This document shows, one piece after another, positions 12,934 to 23,593 of a stretch of 36,372 nt of DNA. The notes beneath the pieces were generated by a model that worked only from the letters and a program-made list of their open reading frames with translations, did not search any database and was not told the origin of the DNA. How positions within the stretch are numbered: the first letter of the stretch is position 1; every line of letters starts with the position of its first letter. The position numbers and the translations under genes were made by a program. This DNA comes from Methanobacteriota archaeon (GTDB lineage: Archaea > Thermoplasmatota > Poseidoniia > Poseidoniales > Poseidoniaceae): the NCBI GenBank assembly GCA_002706065.1, contig PAJM01000023.1, forward strand, positions 2,345-38,716. The letters are read 5' to 3'.

Positions 12934-13509
12934 ATGAGAAAACTTGACGAAAAACGTGAAGTTCTCTATGTAATACGCGCCATGGACGTTCTCATGTCCT
13001 CAGGGATCGGTTTGGAAGCGACCGTACACAGCATTTCGCAAGGAGGGTATGGCGTCATTTCAGACGACTTCGGAAACATGATGGATAAAGTTCGCAAAGG
13101 TGGTCGTCCCCTTGCCAAGGAAATCAAGTTGTTGATGGGGAAAGTCGAAACCGAAGGATACCGCCGACTCCTCAACATCATGCACATGAACATCACCCAA
13201 AATACCGACATTATTGAAACGCTCAAGAAACAGGGCACTCGAATGGAAGAAGAACGGACTGAAGACGTCAAAAAGTACATCGAAGATTTGAGTGGTGTTC
13301 CAGAATCACTTCTTTCAATAGGGATGATTGGACCAATTATTCTTGCAGTGCTCGGGCTTTTCCCACAACTGGTCGGCGATATGGGTTCGTTCTTCAGCAT
13401 GCCTGAACAATCAACAATTGATGTTGTGGTCAACATCGGTCTTTTCCTTACCCTCTTTGCGATGATTATGATTGGTCTCAAGACCCACACGAAGGACCCT
13501 GGATTGTGA
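12934..13509 (+). CDS. TadB/TadC-type pilus platform protein, first copy
   Basis: This 191-residue protein has a cytoplasmic type II secretion F-like domain (LYVIRAMDVLMSSGIGLEATV, then a helical bundle to about residue 130). It ends with two membrane helices (about 128-150, GMIGPIILAVLGLF, and about 160-180, VNIGLFLTLFAMIMIGL). It is shorter than a full TadC and lacks an N-terminal helix. It would form, with the next gene, the inner-membrane platform of a Tad-like pilus. GAGGTG about 6 bases before the ATG supports the start. The next ORF begins 4 bases after the stop. Confidence 0.78.
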   Translation: MRKLDEKREVLYVIRAMDVLMSSGIGLEATVHSISQGGYGVISDDFGNMMDKVRKGGRPLAKEIKLLMGKVETEGYRRLLNIMHMNITQNTDIIETLKKQGTRMEEERTEDVKKYIEDLSGVPESLLSIGMIGPIILAVLGLFPQLVGDMGSFFSMPEQSTIDVVVNIGLFLTLFAMIMIGLKTHTKDPGL

Positions 13510-13513
13510 TTCA

Positions 13514-14245
13514 ATGCTGTTCCGTTTCCTCGAATCCTTTAGCAATCAACCGATGATGCTGATGCTCGGCGTGTTGGGTTTGGGTATGATTGGAGGAGGT
13601 ATTCCCCCCATTCGAGAACGTATTCGACGACGCAAGATCGAAAACGCTCTACCATCCTTCCTTGAAGGCTTATCCGACGAAGTTGGAGCCGGGCTTGGTA
13701 TTCAGGAAGCGATGCAGCATCAAGCCAAAACGGCACCTGCCCCACTTGGACCTCTACTCGAGGAGACTCTGAAAGAAAGTCACTCGAGTTCATTCGATGC
13801 TGCACTCTCAAGTTTTGCAACCAAAACTCGCTCATCTCAAGTTCAACGGGTCATGCATTTGCTTGAAACGGCAATCGAACAGAACGCACCGCTGCAGGAG
13901 ATTTTGATGAATCTATCCATGGACTATGAGCGTCTGAATGATCTCATGAACAAGAGAGAATCAGAACTTCAGGGACGAGGAATTCTCATCATCTTGTTCG
14001 TATGCATAGGATTACCGGGTTTGATCGGATTCCTTGTAGGTCTTTTCACTCCAGCATCGTCTGGTTTCCAAATTGAAGGATTTCTCTCTACCTTCAGTTT
14101 GTTCTTTGCTGTTGCAAGCGCAGTAGGTGTCGCAGTTTCGGGGCGAATGTTGGGACGTATGCGCGACACAATGTGGTTTGTTCCGGGTTGGATGGCAATG
14201 TCAATGTTCATTTTCCTTGGTGCTACCAAGCTTATTGGAGGTTGA
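13514..14245 (+). CDS. TadC-type pilus platform protein, second copy
   Basis: The 243-residue protein from ATG 13514 has a membrane helix at about 13-30 (MMLMLGVLGLGMIGGG). A type II secretion F domain follows (ALPSFLEGLSDEVGAGLGIQEAM...), then three C-terminal helices (about 155-180, 190-208, 218-238). The pairing of two such proteins with one ATPase is the minimal arrangement of archaeal Tad/Epd-like pili. An upstream extension to 13472 only reads through the previous gene and is rejected. The ATPase start follows 3 bases after the stop, within GGAGGTTGA context. Confidence 0.82.
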   Translation: MLFRFLESFSNQPMMLMLGVLGLGMIGGGIPPIRERIRRRKIENALPSFLEGLSDEVGAGLGIQEAMQHQAKTAPAPLGPLLEETLKESHSSSFDAALSSFATKTRSSQVQRVMHLLETAIEQNAPLQEILMNLSMDYERLNDLMNKRESELQGRGILIILFVCIGLPGLIGFLVGLFTPASSGFQIEGFLSTFSLFFAVASAVGVAVSGRMLGRMRDTMWFVPGWMAMSMFIFLGATKLIGG

Positions 14246-14248
14246 AAC

Positions 14249-15493
14249 ATGTCTGAACAAATTCTCGAACAATACGGAAATGTGACCATTTACACTGAAT
14301 CGAACCATCCTTCACCCATTTATCATGTTGAAGGGAACGTCGCTCCGAATCCACACGGCGACCTTGCCGTACTGTTTGAAGACGATAACCTGGAAGAAGT
14401 CATGTACAACGGCGGAACACAGTGCGTCAAAGTTGCCCATCGAGAGCACGGCATGTGCCGTACAAACGTATGGATCAACGACGAGGCGGGGCTTCAAATC
14501 GCTAAGAACATTGCAGCATTTACCAACGTACCCCTTGGCGATGGACCAGGAATGGTTCCGATCTTCGATGGCCGTCTTCCTGACGGATCTCGTGTCAATG
14601 GTACAATTCCACCGGTTTCACCGGATGGACCAACCCTAACGATTCGTAAGTTCAAGGAAGATCCACTCACAATGATTGACTTAGTGAAATTCGGAACCGT
14701 TAATTCTCGACTTGCAGCAATGATGTGGGTGTGGATTGAAGGACTTGACAGTCGACCAGCAAACTTCGTCATTGCAGGTGGTACAGGTTCTGGAAAAACA
14801 ACGACACTGAATTGTCTTGGGATGTACATCCCATGGCACCGTCGTCTCCTCACCGTCGAAGATACCGCTGAATTGCAAGTCTATCACGATCACTGGTTGC
14901 GAATGGAAACTCGTCGTGAACGCCCAGATGGAACACCTGAAGTTGACATGAACGATTGTCTCAAATCAAGTCTACGTATGCGCCCTGACCGAATCATTGT
15001 TGGAGAAGTTCGTGGACCTGAAGCGGCAACACTGCTCACTGCAATGAACACTGGACACGATGGCTCTTTTGGCAGCCTTCACGCGAATACAGCTCAGGAA
15101 ACGGTTACCAGAATGATCAATCCTCCAATGAATGTCCCACCGATTATGCTTACAGGTCTTGACCTTATCATCATTCAAGCAAGGCTTCACGTGAATGGGA
15201 AGACGGCCCGTAAAATCACAGAAGTTGCCGAAATTGCAGGTATGGAAGGTTCCAAACCACGATTGAACACCATTTGGAAGTACAACGCAGCAACCGATCA
15301 AATTGAAGAAACTGGAATCCCTTCCAACCTCCGTGAAGTCATCTGTCGAGCCGCCGGCGTAACACCAGACATCTTCGAAAAGCATGTCCACCAACGTCAG
15401 CAAATCATTGAAGATTTGATTGCAAGAGACATTACTGATATCCAATCAGTTACAACGGTCATTCAGAACTTCTACGCTCAGAGTCATCACTGA
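14249..15493 (+). CDS. TadA/CpaF/VirB11-family secretion ATPase
   Basis: The 414-residue hexameric ATPase shows an N-terminal domain ending in LPDGSRVNGTIPPVS. It then has Walker A GGTGSGKTTT (about 177-186), the Asp box LTVEDTAELQ (about 207-216), Walker B RIIVGEVRGPEA (about 248-259) and the His box GSLHANTAQET (about 279-289). DGSRVN and SLHANT are typical of the TadA/CpaF branch rather than FlaI. It powers assembly of type IV-like pili by acting on the two platform proteins encoded immediately upstream. GGAGGTTGA 3 bases before the ATG is a strong binding site. The 3' end overlaps the convergent SAP-like gene by 7 bases. Confidence 0.92.
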   Translation: MSEQILEQYGNVTIYTESNHPSPIYHVEGNVAPNPHGDLAVLFEDDNLEEVMYNGGTQCVKVAHREHGMCRTNVWINDEAGLQIAKNIAAFTNVPLGDGPGMVPIFDGRLPDGSRVNGTIPPVSPDGPTLTIRKFKEDPLTMIDLVKFGTVNSRLAAMMWVWIEGLDSRPANFVIAGGTGSGKTTTLNCLGMYIPWHRRLLTVEDTAELQVYHDHWLRMETRRERPDGTPEVDMNDCLKSSLRMRPDRIIVGEVRGPEAATLLTAMNTGHDGSFGSLHANTAQETVTRMINPPMNVPPIMLTGLDLIIIQARLHVNGKTARKITEVAEIAGMEGSKPRLNTIWKYNAATDQIEETGIPSNLREVICRAAGVTPDIFEKHVHQRQQIIEDLIARDITDIQSVTTVIQNFYAQSHH

Positions 15494-17241
15494 TCGTCTT
15501 GCAATCGAAGTCGTGACAGAAGGGCATCTACTCGATCGATTTGTCCTCGGACGCCTCCTACACGGTCAGAAGCATCTGCGACCGATTCTGCGACATGCAA
15601 TTCTGGTTCTTCCTCTTCCTCTTCTTGAGGTTTGAACGTTGCAGCGAGTGCTTTGAGCTCCAGAACAATTGCATCGACTTGTTCATCACTAACAAGTATG
15701 CCTGGCGCCAGTCGAGGAATCTGGCTTGGTGTCAAATACCCAAGTTCGGTGCCAACAATACCTGCACAAGCCAATACTCGCGGACGCAACTCTGCGGTGT
15801 TGACGAGATATCCTTTTGATTCAAGGAAGCGAATGATGAGGCTCTGTTGTGATTCCGAGAAATCGCCTTCACTCGACTCGAGAACTGTTTCTACAAGTGA
15901 TTCAAACGAAGGTAAATTTCGCTCAAGGCGTTCTATGGTTCTTCGCACCTCATCCGGCAAGTGAACTGCACCGTGATAGAGAATACGAAGCATGCGATTT
16001 CTCCGTGCAGCCGCTGGGTCTTGCAGTTCCTCAGCCTCACTGATTTCCAGATGAAGGTCAAACAGTGCATGCAGTCGGCCAGAGACAGCGGGACTCCTCA
16101 GGTCCAAGCCAAGACTACGTGCTTCTTCCTCAAATTCCATACGAGCTTGAATCAAATTTCCTCTGCGTCCTGCTACGATTTCAGGAATGCGTTCTCGCAG
16201 TTGTGGTCGCATTTGCTCAAACAATCGAATTGCTTCCCGTTCCGACCATGAGCCTGGTTTGGCTGAAAGTGCATGTTGCTCTTGTTCGGAACGATATGCT
16301 GTTTCCATAATGATGGATCGAATTGCATCTTGGACTCTAGCGAGATCGACTGAGAAGCCATGTGTCACTAGACTAGAGATGAACGTGTTCATGTCGTCCA
16401 CATCGGTTGTACTTCCAACCAAAAGGTAGTCTCGAGCAGCAGCCTCTACCTCTGCTCGGCGAGATGAAATCTCCAGCAAAGCTGCCTCCTCCTCAAGCGT
16501 TGGTTCCTCTGTTGAGAGTTCTTGCAGCATTGGTGGAACTGGTTGTTCAACATCGTTCATATGAGAACTGAGGCTTTCTTCTATAGAGGCTGCGACATTG
16601 GAGAGCGAGGCATCGATTCCTTCCTCGTTCATGGTTACGATCAAGTCGGATTCTTCTTCGAATGTCCATCCTTCAGGGTGCTCACTGACAAAGGATTCCA
16701 CGGTTTCTTCAATTGACGTAGCTTCTACAGTTGGCGCTTCATCGGAATCTCCCGGAGTAGGGATGTCAACTGAACCACGGCCACGCTTGAGTGAACGCTT
16801 GATTGTCCCCCAGTTCTTATGTTGAGCAGATAGTACTCCTGCTACACGAATCAACAGCGTTTGTCGGTTTCCAGAACGAGGGAGTTCCAACGCTTTGCAC
16901 AGGGAGTGCAATTCCTCTTTGGTCATTTTGTCTAAGTTCTCTTCTTTGAGTTGTTTTGGATCGTGATTTAGGTGGAGATAGATCCGTTGGCGGCGTGTTC
17001 GTAACGAACCTGTCTTTTTGATACCAAATACACCAAGAAGGTCTCCAAGGTCACTGTTGAGGATGTTTTTCAGACCGTCGAGAGTCAAGTCCCATTCGGG
17101 CAAAATAAGGTCTCGAATCAACTGGGCTCGGAGATATTCCACGGAGCCATTTTTGGCCAAACCATACGCTGAAGCAATCTCTTTGAGGTCCTCAAGACGT
17201 GCCTGATAGAGTTCAGACAGGAGACTCGAACGATTACTCAT
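15487..17241 (-). CDS. Acidic protein with N-terminal SAP-like repeats
   Basis: Starting at ATG 17241 (AGGTGA 4 bases upstream), this 584-residue protein shows three SAP-like helix-turn-helix units in about the first 140 residues: LEDLKEIASAYGLAKNGSVE, LKNILNSDLGDLLGVFGIKKTGS and LHSLCKALELPRSGNRQ. A long acidic low-complexity region follows (about 165-270), then a helical C-terminal half of about 300 residues with a run of seven glutamates near 540. SAP motifs usually bind DNA or RNA, so a nucleic-acid-associated scaffold is likely, but I do not recognise the family. The GTG- or ATG-extended N-terminus up to 17295 lacks a binding site. It is divergent from the coiled-coil gene. Confidence 0.7.
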   Translation of the reverse strand: MSNRSSLLSELYQARLEDLKEIASAYGLAKNGSVEYLRAQLIRDLILPEWDLTLDGLKNILNSDLGDLLGVFGIKKTGSLRTRRQRIYLHLNHDPKQLKEENLDKMTKEELHSLCKALELPRSGNRQTLLIRVAGVLSAQHKNWGTIKRSLKRGRGSVDIPTPGDSDEAPTVEATSIEETVESFVSEHPEGWTFEEESDLIVTMNEEGIDASLSNVAASIEESLSSHMNDVEQPVPPMLQELSTEEPTLEEEAALLEISSRRAEVEAAARDYLLVGSTTDVDDMNTFISSLVTHGFSVDLARVQDAIRSIIMETAYRSEQEQHALSAKPGSWSEREAIRLFEQMRPQLRERIPEIVAGRRGNLIQARMEFEEEARSLGLDLRSPAVSGRLHALFDLHLEISEAEELQDPAAARRNRMLRILYHGAVHLPDEVRRTIERLERNLPSFESLVETVLESSEGDFSESQQSLIIRFLESKGYLVNTAELRPRVLACAGIVGTELGYLTPSQIPRLAPGILVSDEQVDAIVLELKALAATFKPQEEEEEEPELHVAESVADASDRVGGVRGQIDRVDALLSRLRLQDDQ

Positions 17242-17245
17242 CACT

Positions 17246-17251
17246 TCACCT
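17246..17251 (-). promoter_or_regulatory. Ribosome binding site for the SAP-like gene
   Basis: On the minus strand AGGTGA lies 4 bases before the ATG at 17241, favouring MSNRSSLLSE as the N-terminus over the ATG at 17295. Confidence 0.6.
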
Positions 17252-17410
17252 ATGCATCGTTGTTCCCTTACAGTATATGTGGTTTCGCTGTCCAATTGGC
17301 ATCAATAAGCCGATTTCTGGTTCAAATTTTCAATGCGAGATGCATCCTTTTCCCGTCTTTTCGGCTAAACCTTGAAACACGTTCGACAATGAGGACCTAT
17401 CGGTGAGTAA

Positions 17411-18028
17411 ATGGTAACCGCTGAAAAAACCGCACGAACCATGCTCAAACAAGCCAATGAGTTGGGCAATACGCTACGTGAAATTGTGCGCAGGGACTTG
17501 GCTGATGAAACACGAAGATTCAACGACACCTTGAACCAACGTATTCAACTCGCAAGTGAAGCCATCGTTCAAGCAGTAAAAGCCAAGGAAGCGATTGCTG
17601 CAGGGGCAACTTCAATCAACATGAAACTAGAAAAGGCGCATCGCAGGTATTCAAAAAACAACAACCTCGAAGAGTTTCGAGGCGTCCTACAATCCACATT
17701 AGAGGAAGTTCAACAACTTCGCGAACAACATGAAACCGTTGCCAATTCATTGAGAGAAGCCCAAACCCCCAGTCGTTCTGCAGTTGAAATCGTTGAACGT
17801 TTTGCTATCGAACTGCAGAAAGCCGCTGGTGGATGGGAAGCAACCGGGCGAGAAATTGATGAAATCATTGCGAACCTGTGCGACCCCAATCCAGATGTTG
17901 CACTTGTCGAAATGGAAAAGTACCTCACTGAGAATGGATTTGAAGTTGTCCTTGTTGGAGAAAATCGAAACGATGAATCCCTTGAGGAAGCCCGACGTCA
18001 ACTCGGTTATTCGGACTCATCAGAGTGA
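17411..18028 (+). CDS. Coiled-coil protein of unknown function
   Basis: This soluble 205-residue protein is almost entirely helical. Heptad-like stretches cover roughly residues 5-65 and 75-120, and an acidic helical C-terminus of about 55 residues includes EMEKYLTENGFEVVLVGE. No catalytic motif, signal peptide or cysteine cluster is visible except one Cys in NLCDPN. GGTGAG 3 bases before the ATG supports the start. It diverges from the SAP-like gene across 169 bases that probably hold both promoters, and its 3' end overlaps the PBGD-like gene by 22 bases. Possible roles are scaffold or oligomeric adaptor; function unknown. Confidence 0.65.
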   Translation: MVTAEKTARTMLKQANELGNTLREIVRRDLADETRRFNDTLNQRIQLASEAIVQAVKAKEAIAAGATSINMKLEKAHRRYSKNNNLEEFRGVLQSTLEEVQQLREQHETVANSLREAQTPSRSAVEIVERFAIELQKAAGGWEATGREIDEIIANLCDPNPDVALVEMEKYLTENGFEVVLVGENRNDESLEEARRQLGYSDSSE

Positions 18029-19092
18029 ATTCGCATCATTGCTGGACGATCTTCGTGGAATTCGTCGGGCATGTCGCGAACTCTGCGAAGAGTTGCCTTG
18101 TGTTCGGAAGTTAACGTTGTCAGCATACTTCCCCATTCCTGAAGAAGATTAATCGCTGCAACTCGATGTTTTTCGATCGGTCCAACCTGTTCAGCACAAG
18201 CACTTACCTTTCCATCTATGCTCAGAGTTTCGATTCGCATTTCGACACGTGTTCCTGCATCGCGAACGTTCTTCTCCGTATCGACCATTGCCCCCATGGT
18301 CCAATCATCGTTGTTTCTTTTCGCCTCGCGCAGAATTGTACCAACACCGCGTTGTTCCACATGGATTCCAGTTAATTCTACAAGATCGCTGGGAATACTT
18401 TCAAGCAAAGAAGATTCGATTCGGTAGGCGAATTCTGCAGAAGGATCAAGAATATGTTCAACCTTGTTCTTTGGAAATCCAACACGGCCAACAAGAAGGG
18501 TGAAGCCATTCAGCGGAGGCGGTACGAAGTGCGAACGTTCCGGCGATCCTTTATGCAATCCAAGCGTATGTCGGCGGGTTTTACTTGAAAGTAAATTGTA
18601 TTGAGAACGCTTCACGACATAGCCATCGATTGTACCGTCAACCCTCAATGATTCAAGTTGTTCAATCTCTTCACGAGATTCATCTTCGAGCCCCTCAAGC
18701 TCAACCTGTTGCTTTGTCAGAAGGTCGAAATCTTGACGCAAGCGAAGCATTTGTCGCTGAAGCAGTGGGTGATGACAAACTATTCGTGCATTTTTAATCA
18801 AATACTCAGGCTTGTCATCGCTTACTAACACCCAGGTTGGTTCTCGGCGCGAAAGCAATCCGATGATGGCGATGTTTTCGTTTTGATGTTCAATCCAGTT
18901 TTGGGGACTCATAGCCACCAAATCACCAACACCATCGAGGAGAAGCGTAAGGGCATCATCGATTGTCGGTGTTTGACGTAGAATAGCGTTAAACGTCTTA
19001 CTGCGCTGCTCCAAGACCTTTTCGACCTGTTGCCTGACACCATCTCCGTGAGATGATGTTGAAAGGAAAACCAAACGCTCGTCATCCATCAT
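18007..19092 (-). CDS. Degenerate porphobilinogen deaminase (HemC)-like protein
   Basis: The 361 residues can be laid along HemC end to end. TIDDALTLLLDGVGDLVAMS matches the 'ei..aLl.g..DlaVhS' segment, and GLLSRREPTWVLVS matches 'vl.Re.prDvLvs'. ARIVCHHPLLQRQMLRLR matches 'a.iGTSSlRRqaqll..r'. Residues about 136-168 match 'RGNV.tRl.kl..g.yDaivla.agl.rL'. The end (SIDGKVSACAEQVGP...NLLQEWG) matches domain 3. Yet the catalytic KD pair reads QN (64-65), the GTSSLRR loop is CHHPLLQ, and the cofactor-binding GC..PVG is SIPSDLVELTG. It is therefore probably not a deaminase and may bind another ligand. ATG 19092 or 19089 are both possible; GAGGTGA sits immediately upstream. Confidence 0.6.
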   Translation of the reverse strand: MMDDERLVFLSTSSHGDGVRQQVEKVLEQRSKTFNAILRQTPTIDDALTLLLDGVGDLVAMSPQNWIEHQNENIAIIGLLSRREPTWVLVSDDKPEYLIKNARIVCHHPLLQRQMLRLRQDFDLLTKQQVELEGLEDESREEIEQLESLRVDGTIDGYVVKRSQYNLLSSKTRRHTLGLHKGSPERSHFVPPPLNGFTLLVGRVGFPKNKVEHILDPSAEFAYRIESSLLESIPSDLVELTGIHVEQRGVGTILREAKRNNDDWTMGAMVDTEKNVRDAGTRVEMRIETLSIDGKVSACAEQVGPIEKHRVAAINLLQEWGSMLTTLTSEHKATLRRVRDMPDEFHEDRPAMMRIHSDESE

Positions 19093-19170
19093 CTCACCTC
19101 GGCCGAGGGTCCCTCAGCAATCTATGGGCGTAGCCCACTCGTTAAGAAGGACACCCTCATCGTCCCTACC

Positions 19171-20154
19171 GTGCAAGCAATTCCTGAAGCCCAACTTCTT
19201 CGCCTCGAAGACCTTCGTGAGAAGGTCAATGTGGCACTTGAAACATTGATTCAACGTGAGGTTGGAAAAGGTGCGGGCGAAGTCGCACAACTCTCTGGCG
19301 AGATTTTGCTGTCTGGAGGGAAGAGGCTGCGACCCTTGCTTGGCATATTCTGCTACGAAGCAGCAGGCGGAAAAGACGTTGATGAAATCATGGACCTTGC
19401 ACTTGCATTTGAACTCATACACACCGCTACGCTCATTCACGATGACATCAATGATGCAGCGAAGCTTCGTCGAGGCATTACCACTTTGCATGAACGTATT
19501 GGCCAACCAAAAGCCATCATTGCAGGGGACTGGCTGTTTGTCCAAGGATATGGACTAAGTGGAAGATACACAAAGGAATGCATCGATCTGATTCGAGAAG
19601 CTTGTGCAAACATCGCAGTCTCAGAATTCAAGCAGCTCGACCACGTCCTTGACCTATCCACATCCCCTGAAGATTATCTCCAAATCGTTCGAGGAAAGAC
19701 CGCAGGCCCGTTTTCAGCAGTATGTGAAAGCGCAGCAATCATTGCTGGAGCAACCCCTGAACAATCAAGGGCGCTCGGTCGATTTGGCATGGAGTTAGGA
19801 ATTGCGTTTCAACTGATGGACGATTTACTCGACCTTCGAGGGGATGAACGCATGGGCAAACTACGCGGAAAGGACATTCTCGAAGGAAAGATGACACTGC
19901 CGTTGATTCACGCCCTCACGTTGCTCCATGGTAAACGCCGTCAACGTCTTTCTGAAATTTTACAACATTTCAACGACAATCTGTGGGATGAACTCATGGG
20001 CCTCTTGGAAACATCAGACTCAATTCATTACTCAGAATGCTTGATGCATACGCACCTTGAACGAGCCATTCAGGAATTGGATATTCTGCCTGAAACTGGA
20101 TCAAAGCAACTTCTTCTAAACATTGTAGAGCAAATGCAATCACGAGAAATTTGA
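19171..20154 (+). CDS. Polyprenyl diphosphate synthase (geranylgeranyl-type)
   Basis: This is a trans-isoprenyl diphosphate synthase of 327 residues with GGKRLRP (about 50-56). It has the first aspartate-rich motif HDDIND...RRG (about 90-103) and the second, FQLMDDLLDLRGD (about 211-223); both DDxxD motifs are complete. It condenses IPP with allylic diphosphates to C15/C20 or longer chains for archaeal ether lipids; chain length cannot be read reliably. The start is a GTG without a visible binding site, 78 bases from the divergent PBGD-like gene. The geranylgeranyl reductase follows after 9 bases, forming a lipid operon. Confidence 0.92.
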   Translation: MQAIPEAQLLRLEDLREKVNVALETLIQREVGKGAGEVAQLSGEILLSGGKRLRPLLGIFCYEAAGGKDVDEIMDLALAFELIHTATLIHDDINDAAKLRRGITTLHERIGQPKAIIAGDWLFVQGYGLSGRYTKECIDLIREACANIAVSEFKQLDHVLDLSTSPEDYLQIVRGKTAGPFSAVCESAAIIAGATPEQSRALGRFGMELGIAFQLMDDLLDLRGDERMGKLRGKDILEGKMTLPLIHALTLLHGKRRQRLSEILQHFNDNLWDELMGLLETSDSIHYSECLMHTHLERAIQELDILPETGSKQLLLNIVEQMQSREI

Positions 20155-20163
20155 GGGTTCACT

Positions 20164-21264
20164 TTGCCAACTGACTTTGATTACGAGGCGATTGTCATTG
20201 GTGGCGGACCTGCGGGAAGTACCGTAGCACGCTACGCCGCTGAACGAGGTGTGAAGGTCCTCGTAATCGATGGAAGAGACCCAATCGGCTCACCACTGCA
20301 ATGCGGGGAACTTGTTCCGAGCAACGAAGAAATGAAGCGTTTGTGCCCAGACGTCCCCGATATCGATGATTTGTTTCAGACTCCGGATGAGGCCATTTCC
20401 ATGACCTGCGATCAAATGCACATCATTACACCCTCAGGTAAAGCGCTGAAGTATCGCTTCGAAGGATTGATGCTTAATCGCGTCGTTCATGATGAAAATC
20501 TTGTTGCCATTGCACAACAGGCTGGTGCCGAGTATTTGGTTGGAAAACGCGTATTGCGGGCTGAGGGGAACACCATTTTCCTCCGAGATGGAAGCACACT
20601 TACTGCAAACGTCATCGTCGACGCTGGTGGGCACAAGGGCCCCATACGCAGAGAATACTGGGATGAGAAATCAGTCACAATACCAGTGAAGTTTTGCTTG
20701 ATGGACGGCCACTTTGGTGATGCTGTAGAATTGCATTTTGGTTCTGTTGCACCTGGAGGCTATGCATGGATGTTCCCGAAAACAGGAGGCGCAAACATTG
20801 GTTTGGGAATCCAGCGATCGTTTGCAAAAGGGAAAACTCTCAATCAATATGCTGACGATTTCATCTCAAAGTATGACGGTGAAACAACCTTCAACGGAGC
20901 GGGTGGCCTACCTATGTCTGGAACATTGAAGTCCTTCGTCAAAGGGAATTTCATGCTCGTGGGTGATTCTGCAGGAATGGTGTTGCCCTCAAATGGAGCA
21001 GGAATTACCATTGCGATGATTGGAGGCCGAATCGCTGGAAAGATAATCCATGAGCATCTCAAAAACAATGTTCCGTTAAAATCATATGAAACTGAGTGGA
21101 AAAAACAGATGGGCAAGGTCATGAAAAACTCAAAGCGATCGTTCAAGATTGGCTCGTTGATGTTCCGATTACCAAATTGGATGCTAAATTTGCTGTTTAA
21201 CCGCCTCACAAAAGGAATCGTTTGGAGAGCCGTCACCTGCAAGAGGATGTTCTTTATCCTGTGA
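20164..21264 (+). CDS. Geranylgeranyl reductase family flavoprotein
   Basis: The 366-residue FAD enzyme has GGGPAGSTVARYAAERG (about 13-29), the CGE segment (LQCGELV, about 47-52), the family motif YAWMFP (about 200-205), and the flavin-binding GDSAGMVLPSNGAGI (about 268-282). These match digeranylgeranylglycerophospholipid reductase, which saturates isoprenoid chains of archaeal membrane lipids. The C-terminus carries a basic, hydrophobic tail suited to membrane association. The start is a TTG preceded by GAGGG at about 6 bases, overlapping the upstream stop region. It is coupled with the prenyl synthase. Confidence 0.9.
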   Translation: MPTDFDYEAIVIGGGPAGSTVARYAAERGVKVLVIDGRDPIGSPLQCGELVPSNEEMKRLCPDVPDIDDLFQTPDEAISMTCDQMHIITPSGKALKYRFEGLMLNRVVHDENLVAIAQQAGAEYLVGKRVLRAEGNTIFLRDGSTLTANVIVDAGGHKGPIRREYWDEKSVTIPVKFCLMDGHFGDAVELHFGSVAPGGYAWMFPKTGGANIGLGIQRSFAKGKTLNQYADDFISKYDGETTFNGAGGLPMSGTLKSFVKGNFMLVGDSAGMVLPSNGAGITIAMIGGRIAGKIIHEHLKNNVPLKSYETEWKKQMGKVMKNSKRSFKIGSLMFRLPNWMLNLLFNRLTKGIVWRAVTCKRMFFIL

Positions 21265-21301
21265 TTCCCTTCGTTTTCATCGGTGTGTTCAAGTCTAACC
21301 G

Positions 21302-21808
21302 ATGTCAGCACCTGCCATGGCGAAACTGGATAAGAATGACGAGGCGGTCAGCCCCGTTATTGCTACAGTACTCCTTCTTGCCATCACAGTCATGCTCTCT
21401 GGAATGGTTTTCGTGCTCATGCAGGGTGCTCTAAGTACAGCAGAAAAAGCACCACCCCAGATGACTGTGAGCGTTCGTTCCCTTGACAATGGATATCACG
21501 TCGTTCGAATTACAAGTCTTGACCAAACTCTCGACCCTGGTCGTATTTCATTCAGCCTCCAAGAGCAGGGAGACAGTTCAAACGCCTCGTTTACTGGATA
21601 CGTCAACGATGCTGAGGTGTACTCCGTCATTGGATCAAACATTTCATTCCATGACCGTGACGCAAGTTACTCAATTTCGGCTGGTGATTACTTCGTAATA
21701 CATTCAGAAGAAATCGGTTCCGACGAAGGTGTGTGGACGTTTGTTCTTCTCGAGGAGTCCATTCAATATGTGCTCGTGCGAGTGGATTTACCACCGATGA
21801 GCTCATGA
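21302..21808 (+). CDS. Archaeal type IV pilin-like protein
   Basis: The 168-residue protein has the archaeal pilin N-terminus: charged leader MAKLDKNDE, then AVSPVIATVLLLAITVML, which is both processing site and hydrophobic assembly helix. A beta-rich extracellular domain of about 110 residues with N-glycosylation-like NXS/T sites (SNAS, SNIS) follows. A prepilin peptidase would cleave just before the hydrophobic helix. The in-frame ATG at 21317 is an equally good start. No assembly genes are adjacent; the Tad-like ATPase lies 6 kb upstream. The 3' end overlaps the convergent gene by 6 bases. Confidence 0.82.
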   Translation: MSAPAMAKLDKNDEAVSPVIATVLLLAITVMLSGMVFVLMQGALSTAEKAPPQMTVSVRSLDNGYHVVRITSLDQTLDPGRISFSLQEQGDSSNASFTGYVNDAEVYSVIGSNISFHDRDASYSISAGDYFVIHSEEIGSDEGVWTFVLLEESIQYVLVRVDLPPMSS

Positions 21809-22552
21809 CCCTTCATCGGGGTCATTAAGGGCTCGGATGAAATTCAACTGAGCATTCTTTTCTCGCAGTGCTTTTTGAAGCAGTGAGAACAGTTCTTCTG
21901 AAGTGGTTGAGCCGAGTGCTGACTGTCGATCCGATTGTTTGTCGAGTACGGCGTTTGCTACCTGCCAAAGGGAATCCGTATCGTAAGGCAAGAATTCTTC
22001 TTCCAGAATCAATTGCATTTGTTCAAGTTCAACTTCGTCATTACGGAATATTGCGTTCACGTCAACGATGTGTTGAGCCCATTCATGGAGGAAGGTGGCC
22101 CAATCTTCAGCAAGCAACTCACCTTCGAGGTCATCCATCATACGGATTGATGCACGTAGATACAGCTTACCATTTGGTTCGTCTTCAATGTACTGCTCAA
22201 CGAGGTCGTCAACAGTAGGATAAATGTCTCCGAAAGGCATTGAAGGTAGTGCAGATTGAACAACGTCAATAATTTCGAACCGTTGAGTTCCGTTGGCCGT
22301 GAACATGATGTTTGTTCCTTGCTCCCTCAAGTCGTCCAGCGTACACAGAACACCATATGTCCCTGGTTGGGACCATCCGTCAATTGATTCGGAGTCAGGC
22401 TCATGTGCAACGTATCCAAAGGGGCGCTCATCAATGGTACAATCATCGAGCATTTGCTTGTAACGAGGCTCAAAGACGCGGAGAGGTTCACTCACTGACG
22501 GAAAGATTCCAGACGGTAAAACGAACAATGGGATGGGTTCATCTTCGCTCAT
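21803..22552 (-). CDS. Stand-alone LON substrate-binding domain protein
   Basis: This 249-residue protein begins IPLFVLPSGIFPSVSEPLRVFEPRYKQML, shown here only as the family pattern 'iPLFpL....PG....L.iFEpRY..ml', which marks the Lon N-terminal domain. The middle follows the domain (GYVAHEP, GVLCTLDD, TANGTQRFEI) and a helical C-terminal half follows. No AAA+ or protease domain is attached. Such proteins bind unfolded or specific substrates, and their targets are mostly unknown. The gene lies 39 bases downstream of moaA on the same strand and may be its operon partner by position only. Confidence 0.8.
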   Translation of the reverse strand: MSEDEPIPLFVLPSGIFPSVSEPLRVFEPRYKQMLDDCTIDERPFGYVAHEPDSESIDGWSQPGTYGVLCTLDDLREQGTNIMFTANGTQRFEIIDVVQSALPSMPFGDIYPTVDDLVEQYIEDEPNGKLYLRASIRMMDDLEGELLAEDWATFLHEWAQHIVDVNAIFRNDEVELEQMQLILEEEFLPYDTDSLWQVANAVLDKQSDRQSALGSTTSEELFSLLQKALREKNAQLNFIRALNDPDEGS

Positions 22553-22591: not shown

Positions 22592-23593
22592 TCATCCACC
22601 GATATAGGACATTTCAACTTTAATTTTTGTTGTTTGATTTGAACGTTCTTCGGAATATCGGTCTTTCCGATTCATCCAAATCGACTGTATTGCCTGAGTA
22701 ATATCAGCGGGCGAGCCATCCATTCGCAGAATTCCCCGTACGTCATGCCCTTTGTTTGTGAACAGGCACGTGTAGATACTCCCGTTTGCTGAAAGTCGAG
22801 CCCTTGAGCAATCGCCACAGAATGGGTTGGTAATGGATTCGATAAATCCTATTTTCCAACCTTCTGAGGTGGTGTACACCTTTGCCACGTCGCTGGCATG
22901 GTCAGGACGTTTGGCCTCAAGAGTCCCATATTCATCCGTGAGCATTGAACGTATCACTTCTGCAGGAAGGACATGGTCGAGATTCCAATCATTTGTACTT
23001 CCCACATCCATGAATTCGATGAACCGAACCGAAACGTCTCGCTGGCCGAAGTACTTGACCATTGGAAGTATTTGGTCTTCATTTACGCCTTTTTTTACCA
23101 CAGTATTGACCTTAATTGGGAGGCCAAGACGTTGAACGGCATCAATAGCTTCGAGAACAGTCGATGGAGTCGCATTGGTGTCGCCCATGCTCTGATAGGT
23201 TTGTTCATCCAATGCATCCAGTGAAATCGTCACTCGACTGAGACCGGCCTCATGTAGCTTCTTCAACTGTTTTTTGAGCAATAGCCCATTGGTTGTGATG
23301 GCAATGTCAAGATCGCTTGAACAAACACGCAACTGCCGTATTAACTCGTGAAGGTCCCTGCGGAGAAGTGGTTCACCTCCGGTCAAGCGTACCTTGCGCA
23401 ATCCATGTGGAAGCATAGCCTGTACAACACAGACAATCTCTTCAAATCGCAAAATGTCCTCCCTCGGAAGGAATTCATGGTGCTTATCAAAATGTTCTCT
23501 TGGCATACAATATCGACAACGCATGTTGCACCGATCGGTTACGGAAATACGTAGGTCAAGGAGAGGGCGGTGGTGAACATCCTCAATGACCAT
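22592..23593 (-). CDS. moaA: GTP 3',8-cyclase MoaA
   Basis: This radical SAM enzyme of 333 residues performs the first step of molybdopterin (Moco/tungsten cofactor) synthesis, turning GTP into 3',8-cyclo-GTP. CNMRCRYC (about 22-29) binds the SAM cluster, and LTGGEPLLR (about 70-78) is the SAM-contacting segment. The C-terminal cluster motif NPFCGDCSRARL...YTC (about 257-275) binds the second [4Fe-4S]. The protein ends in the conserved GG tail (SYIGG), so it appears complete. Other moa genes are not in the window. Confidence 0.93.
   Translation of the reverse strand: MVIEDVHHRPLLDLRISVTDRCNMRCRYCMPREHFDKHHEFLPREDILRFEEIVCVVQAMLPHGLRKVRLTGGEPLLRRDLHELIRQLRVCSSDLDIAITTNGLLLKKQLKKLHEAGLSRVTISLDALDEQTYQSMGDTNATPSTVLEAIDAVQRLGLPIKVNTVVKKGVNEDQILPMVKYFGQRDVSVRFIEFMDVGSTNDWNLDHVLPAEVIRSMLTDEYGTLEAKRPDHASDVAKVYTTSEGWKIGFIESITNPFCGDCSRARLSANGSIYTCLFTNKGHDVRGILRMDGSPADITQAIQSIWMNRKDRYSEERSNQTTKIKVEMSYIGG

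Follow-up and report, generated by a model that had tools for sequence, protein, structure and literature searches.

The genome of an archaeon of Candidatus Poseidoniales (Marine Group II) encodes a protein of 361 aa that has the fold of porphobilinogen deaminase (PBGD), is homologous to HemC, and has lost the catalytic residues of that enzyme. The gene is under purifying selection and belongs to a fixed gene block, together with genes for a SAP protein, a geranylgeranyl diphosphate (GGPP) synthase and a geranylgeranyl reductase. An old enzyme seems to have acquired another role, most likely that of a regulatory binding protein. The family is order-wide and constrained, it combines a complete three-domain PBGD fold with none of the chemistry, and it occurs mostly in cells without the early heme pathway.

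Position and surroundings of the HemC-like gene

The window, i.e. the whole stretch of 36,372 nucleotides that was analysed, belongs to contig C23; the genome comprises 1.89 Mb in 45 contigs. The HemC-like gene and its surroundings comprise the following features.

15487-17295, minus strand: SAP protein of 602 aa, next gene downstream on the strand of the HemC-like gene (Pfam, structure model, pI, synteny)
17411-18028, plus strand: convergent coiled-coil protein of 205 aa, between the HemC-like and SAP genes
18007-19092, minus strand: HemC-like (PBGD-fold) pseudoenzyme of 361 aa (HemC profile-profile match, PBGD fold match, alignment of 31 family members)
19093-19170, no strand: divergent promoter region of 78 bases, provided that the facing gene starts with the GTG at 19171 (sequence conserved in the genus)
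19171-20154, plus strand: geranylgeranyl/polyprenyl diphosphate synthase, divergent in all loci read (PF00348 7e-61, synteny)
20164-21264, plus strand: geranylgeranyl-reductase-like FAD protein (translation, synteny; family name from reading the sequence)

The bounds of the open reading frame given in a preliminary description of this DNA are exact, and its strand, absent from that description, is minus. The convergent coiled-coil neighbour named there is real as well, and overlaps the 3′ end of the HemC-like gene by 22 bases. Rfam families were not found in positions 14000-22000 of the window. Beyond the SAP gene, positions 12934-15493 hold genes for two T2SSF-type membrane proteins and, at 14249-15493, for a FlaI/TadA-type secretion ATPase; together they resemble an archaellum/pilus-like motor cluster. 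On the other side, a short ORF whose N-terminus resembles that of a pilin (21302-21808) is followed by a stand-alone Lon substrate-binding-domain protein (21803-22552), adjoining a MoaA-type radical SAM gene (22592-23593).

Homology to HemC and predicted fold

Searches with the single window protein against Pfam, NCBIfam and PDB (phmmer) gave chance matches only and none to HemC. Therefore, the segment-by-segment correspondence to HemC that had been read from the sequence was beyond proof from one sequence. Relatives were gathered from 60 genomes, 59 of them positive, and 31 diverse HemC-like members were aligned (A1); a second alignment contained 24 true HemC sequences (A2). The profile match required a HemC alignment rather than one HemC sequence, and the family profile did not match one HemC sequence of the same genome. 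Comparison of A1 with A2 by hhalign gave 98.5% and an E-value of 2.9e-15 over 217 columns, reaching from domain 1 into domain 3, and the control against the unrelated SAP family gave 0.2%.

In a reverse search over 390 Thermoplasmatota genomes, the A1 profile matched nearly all Poseidoniales, and the matches outside them were weak. Eighteen of the outside loci were read. The best ORFs of 17 carry the HemC motifs SxKD, GTSSxRR, RGN, PAPGQG and the Cys in collinear order, and the best ORF of the remaining locus is itself a degenerate HemC. PF01379 was matched weakly by six of the 31 members on their own (best 0.00087), with the window protein below the Pfam threshold. The best PDB sequence matches of the family profile are likewise PBGD, with a weak E-value of 0.03.

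The AlphaFold model of the HemC-like protein has a mean pLDDT of 89.2 and a pTM of 0.86. In the Foldseek search of this model against PDB, the first 32 matches were all PBGD chains (E 5e-15 to 5e-11; TM by target 0.55-0.71), aligned over 330-390 columns and thus near full length. The next fold followed at 5e-8 with a TM by target of at most 0.42. The preliminary description had named a mismatch to the three-domain PBGD fold as the outcome that would speak against it, and the predicted structure has this fold. The match along the protein, for which a profile-profile comparison had been proposed, is confirmed at the level of the family by hhalign, the reverse profile search, PF01379 and Foldseek. 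There is hardly any doubt that the protein has a PBGD-derived fold. Descent from a periplasmic binding protein was also considered and was rejected, since the third domain is present and all top fold matches are PBGD.

Active-site positions and family signature

In E. coli PBGD, the variants D84N and D84A are inactive and R131L and R132L are without cofactor, and R155 and R176 are also required (PMC3945110). All 24 true HemC sequences of A2 have the corresponding Lys and Asp, the two Arg of the loop, the equivalents of R155 and R176, and the Cys. At the HemC active-site columns the window protein has Q64, N65, L110, L111, L146 and L167, and the catalytic and cofactor columns are not conserved across the 31 HemC-like members. 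Replaced HemC sites and motifs of the family map to the window as follows.

18898-18903, minus strand: Q64-N65, at the position of E. coli HemC Lys83-Asp84 (hhalign register, column counts)
18760-18777, minus strand: CHHPLL (residues 106-111), replacing TSSLRR (hhalign register, column counts)
18367-18393, minus strand: residues 234-242, cofactor-cysteine region of HemC (GGGC in HemC), without Cys (hhalign register, column counts)
18736-18756, minus strand: family motif RQxxRxR (R113, Q114, R117, R119; 31 of 31) (family alignment, column counts)
18568-18576, minus strand: family motif RRH (R173 and R174 invariant; H175 in 28 of 31) (family alignment, column counts)

The three replacements described from the single sequence were all recovered. 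The catalytic Lys-Asp pair is Gln-Asn in the window protein; across the family these two columns are highly variable, with Asp at the Asp84 column in four of the 31 members. The TSSLRR loop is CHHPLL, and most members have aliphatic residues at both of its cofactor/substrate Arg positions. The cofactor region lacks Cys: residues 222-250 contain none in the window protein, the same holds for 28 of the 31 members, and the three exceptions share no conserved position. The wording that all catalytic positions are altered stands for the catalytic and cofactor residues, which are gone, and fails for S62, G196, D57, R83 and R119, which persist. S62 is the Ser81 equivalent, G196 belongs to the GQG motif, and D57, R83 and R119 are structural; with S62, G196 and R83 kept, that wording was slightly overstated.

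Fourteen positions are invariant in 31 of 31 members, namely D57, R113, Q114, R117, R119, R162, R173, R174, L177, P191, R203, R248, E288 and G294. D57 and R119 lie on conserved HemC positions; D57 matches the structural Asp that is invariant in HemC. Most of the other invariant residues form a new signature.

Distribution, heme pathway and selection

The HemC-like protein is present in 59 of the 60 genomes of relatives, and the few cases missing it are incomplete assemblies. Over the cut-off, hemC was found in 16 of the 60 and hemB also in 16, with 15 genomes common to both. Forty-three genomes possess the HemC-like protein and neither hemC nor hemB, including one assembled as a single contig and 96% complete (G033). 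The HemC-like protein occurs regardless of whether a genome has the heme pathway. The window genome itself harbours the separate true hemC whose presence the preliminary description had left to be checked, in an ORF of 563 aa adjoining a glutamyl-tRNA-reductase-like gene and hemB.

The heme operon of Poseidoniales, read at L001:126-3681 (G000:C19), encodes the glutamyl-tRNA-reductase-like protein, HemC and hemB, and is patchy, occurring in about 16 of the 60 genomes. The HemC of 563 aa encoded in this operon carries a long C-terminal extension, probably HemD. In another genome, a second, bacterial-looking pair of hemC and hemB lies on one short contig (G017:C56; L055, L072), and is probably contamination.

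Against congeners, the dN/dS of the HemC-like gene is about 0.03 where dS, which is near saturation, can be estimated. This value indicates a constrained protein and not a relic. A decaying pseudogene was rejected on the basis of this ratio and of the near-universal presence, and a phage gene was rejected because there was no match among phage records. It is practically certain that the HemC-like protein is not a PBG deaminase. The proposal that it derives from HemC and has another role is well supported by the PBGD fold, the missing catalytic and cofactor residues, the separate hemC and the 43 genomes without hemC and hemB.

Origin of the family

Set on a very long branch, the HemC-like family is recovered as monophyletic (100%), and the tree does not settle its attachment within Thermoplasmatota HemC. 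The best explanation is that the family arose from HemC long ago, as a duplicate or a descendant, and became fixed in Poseidoniales.

A degenerate second HemC was observed in another Thermoplasmatota genus (L123:7326-8183, minus strand, and L129-L132; genomes G353 and G407-G409). Here the KD pair is changed to DE or EQ, and the cofactor Cys is lost in the copies read. These genomes encode a true hemC elsewhere, and next to the degenerate copy lie genes for an M48-like peptidase and for a DoxX-like membrane protein. The tree joins this paralogue to the HemC of its own genus (100% ultrafast bootstrap); the AU test does not reject a shared origin with the Poseidoniales family (p 0.20). The tree does not favour the paralogue as the ancestor or sister of the Poseidoniales family, and the same conversion may have happened independently in this genus.

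Conserved gene block and SAP protein

Clustering of ORFs from 31 loci, which cover both families of the order, gave the arrangement reductase, GGPP synthase, (divergent) HemC-like gene and SAP gene. This fixed block, found in all Poseidoniales loci read, is new here. Reductase, GGPP synthase and HemC-like genes are present in 31 of 31 loci and the SAP gene in 30, the exception being a contig end. The coiled-coil gene occurs in nine of the 31 loci, and the conserved same-strand partner of the HemC-like gene is the SAP gene beyond it. Nine of the 31 loci likewise have, beyond the SAP gene, the gene for the pilus-type ATPase (some loci have short flanks), and genes further downstream differ.

In the model of the SAP protein, three SAP-like helix-extended-helix motifs are predicted in the N-terminal part, at residues ~34-64, 80-110 and 126-158. 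Pfam SAP_new25 and SAP were detected in 16 and 13 of 17 SAP-family members, respectively. The motif exceeds the curated threshold (PF18953, 27.3 bits against a cut-off of 26.3), with E <= 0.01 in 16 of the 17 members. The N-terminal part is basic (pI 9.85 for residues 20-175), which is suggestive of DNA binding, and the C-terminal part is acidic and helical. The fold search with the SAP protein model gave no significant match; the best, non-significant matches include DEK-nucleosome complexes and other SAP domains. Within the SAP family (A3), the N-terminal 160 aa are strongly conserved, and total length ranges from about 330 to 675 aa between genera, with the C-terminal part varying. The HemC-like and SAP families have the same range, covering nearly all Poseidoniales and none of the seven genomes of the third family of the class.

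The divergent promoter region contains a CCTCGG/CCGAGG palindrome and the inverted repeat TGGGC-GTA-GCCCA, conserved in most of the genus, with one arm of the repeat imperfect in part of it. Some of the conservation in this region could be coding, if the GGPP synthase starts upstream of the GTG. The window genome contains one exact copy of the inverted repeat, so that any such operator would be at most local. For this reason the repeat was rejected as a regulon operator.

Possible role of the HemC-like protein

A descendant of HemC would have given up binding of the dipyrromethane cofactor and polymerisation of porphobilinogen, and its two-domain cleft and third domain would have taken on a different, arginine-rich set of invariant residues. 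The HemC-like and SAP proteins would be the two subunits of a complex: DNA binding would fall to the SAP protein, and binding, sensing or scaffolding to the PBGD-fold protein. As target, the divergent promoter common to the GGPP synthase and the geranylgeranyl reductase would be the most economical. That the HemC-like protein acts with the SAP protein is fairly probable; the conserved linkage could also stem from a shared essential locus and not from a shared function. A DNA-associated complex of the two proteins, ligand-responsive or structural, is the favoured reading, and comes close to being probable without quite reaching it; the acidic character of the full HemC-like protein (pI 5.5) and the absence of a significant fold match for the SAP protein model count against it. 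Since the substrate and cofactor arginines are gone, nothing points to a tetrapyrrole if the protein senses a ligand, as the preliminary description had suggested that it might. At its widest, the proposal would make the PBGD scaffold the sensor subunit of a regulator with a triple-SAP DNA binder, controlling the synthesis of archaeal membrane lipids across the order. We consider this widest form unlikely, and the pattern of the inverted repeat, which gives no regulon-type support, counts against it.

Several other roles were weighed. In an architectural complex of nucleoid type, the SAP protein would coat or bridge DNA, the PBGD-fold protein would be a ligand-free adaptor, and the adjacency to the lipid genes would be historical. 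A basic N-terminal part with its three SAP-like motifs, followed by a long helical acidic part, the DEK-nucleosome and SAP domains among the non-significant fold matches, and the near-universal occurrence in Poseidoniales agree with such a complex. However, a cleft-forming two-domain fold kept with its own invariant motifs suggests specific binding, and SAP proteins vary in the length of their C-terminal part, which leaves an architectural role rather unlikely. The invariant linkage with the GGPP synthase and reductase pair, and the residues invariant across the 31 members, eight Arg and one Glu among them, would also suit a new enzyme, in which the scaffold performs other chemistry or the arginines bind isoprenoid diphosphate or another anion in connection with the GGPP synthase. 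Such an enzyme is decidedly improbable, as the polar invariant set is nearly all Arg (plus D57, Q114 and E288), which is not a typical catalytic set, and the HemC-like gene is transcribed away from the GGPP synthase gene, together with the SAP gene.

Because the PBGD fold holds linear tetrapyrroles, and hemC and hemB are absent from most Poseidoniales examined, a tetrapyrrole- or heme-related carrier or sensor, retained in cells without heme synthesis by the known route, was also considered. It is very unlikely, since the cofactor and chain residues (R131, R132, R155, R176, K83, D84 and the Cys) are all lost and their positions unconserved, and the protein is present independently of the heme pathway. 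Even less credible, to the point of being nearly negligible, is a divergent but working PBG deaminase replacing hemC. Fold and homology speak for it; against it are the lost catalytic residues, the window genome encoding both the HemC-like protein and a true HemC, and the 43 genomes without hemB, which would have no porphobilinogen by the known route.

Significance and comparison with known systems

As an enzyme, porphobilinogen deaminase is highly conserved and serves a single purpose. The pseudoenzyme and its SAP neighbour offer a testable case of evolution from an enzyme to a binding protein, and a candidate core-gene pair for one of the commonest archaeal groups of the surface ocean. Furthermore, permissive annotation could mis-call Poseidoniales genomes as hemC-positive. 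A search for open-access papers combining "porphobilinogen deaminase" and "pseudoenzyme" found none, which does not prove absence from the literature. The main genome paper on Poseidoniales has no heme or porphyrin terms, and describes the lineage as without cultured representatives (PMC6461757).

Similar to HemC (PF01379 and PF03900), the HemC-like protein has three domains in the same order, a collinear profile match and the structural Asp (D57). It also shares an RREP-like strand, the R(P)DL helix end, a strand with FxPPP in place of LPAPGQG, and the DG turn of domain 3. Unlike HemC, it is without Lys83-Asp84, TSSLRR, Arg155, Arg176 and the cofactor Cys, it has its own invariant RQxxRxR, R162, RRH, R203 and R248, it is about 60 aa longer, and its gene is not linked to heme genes.

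The type II periplasmic-binding-protein-like effector domains (for example YhfZ, SsuA and HisG), some of which are sensor parts of regulators, have a two-lobe binding fold equivalent to domains 1 and 2. However, their Foldseek matches are at 5e-8 or weaker, with TM by target of at most 0.42, and they lack the third domain. The paralogue of the G353 genus resembles the Poseidoniales family in being a non-catalytic copy of HemC that accompanies a true hemC, but it has no SAP gene or lipid genes alongside and groups with the HemC of its own genus.
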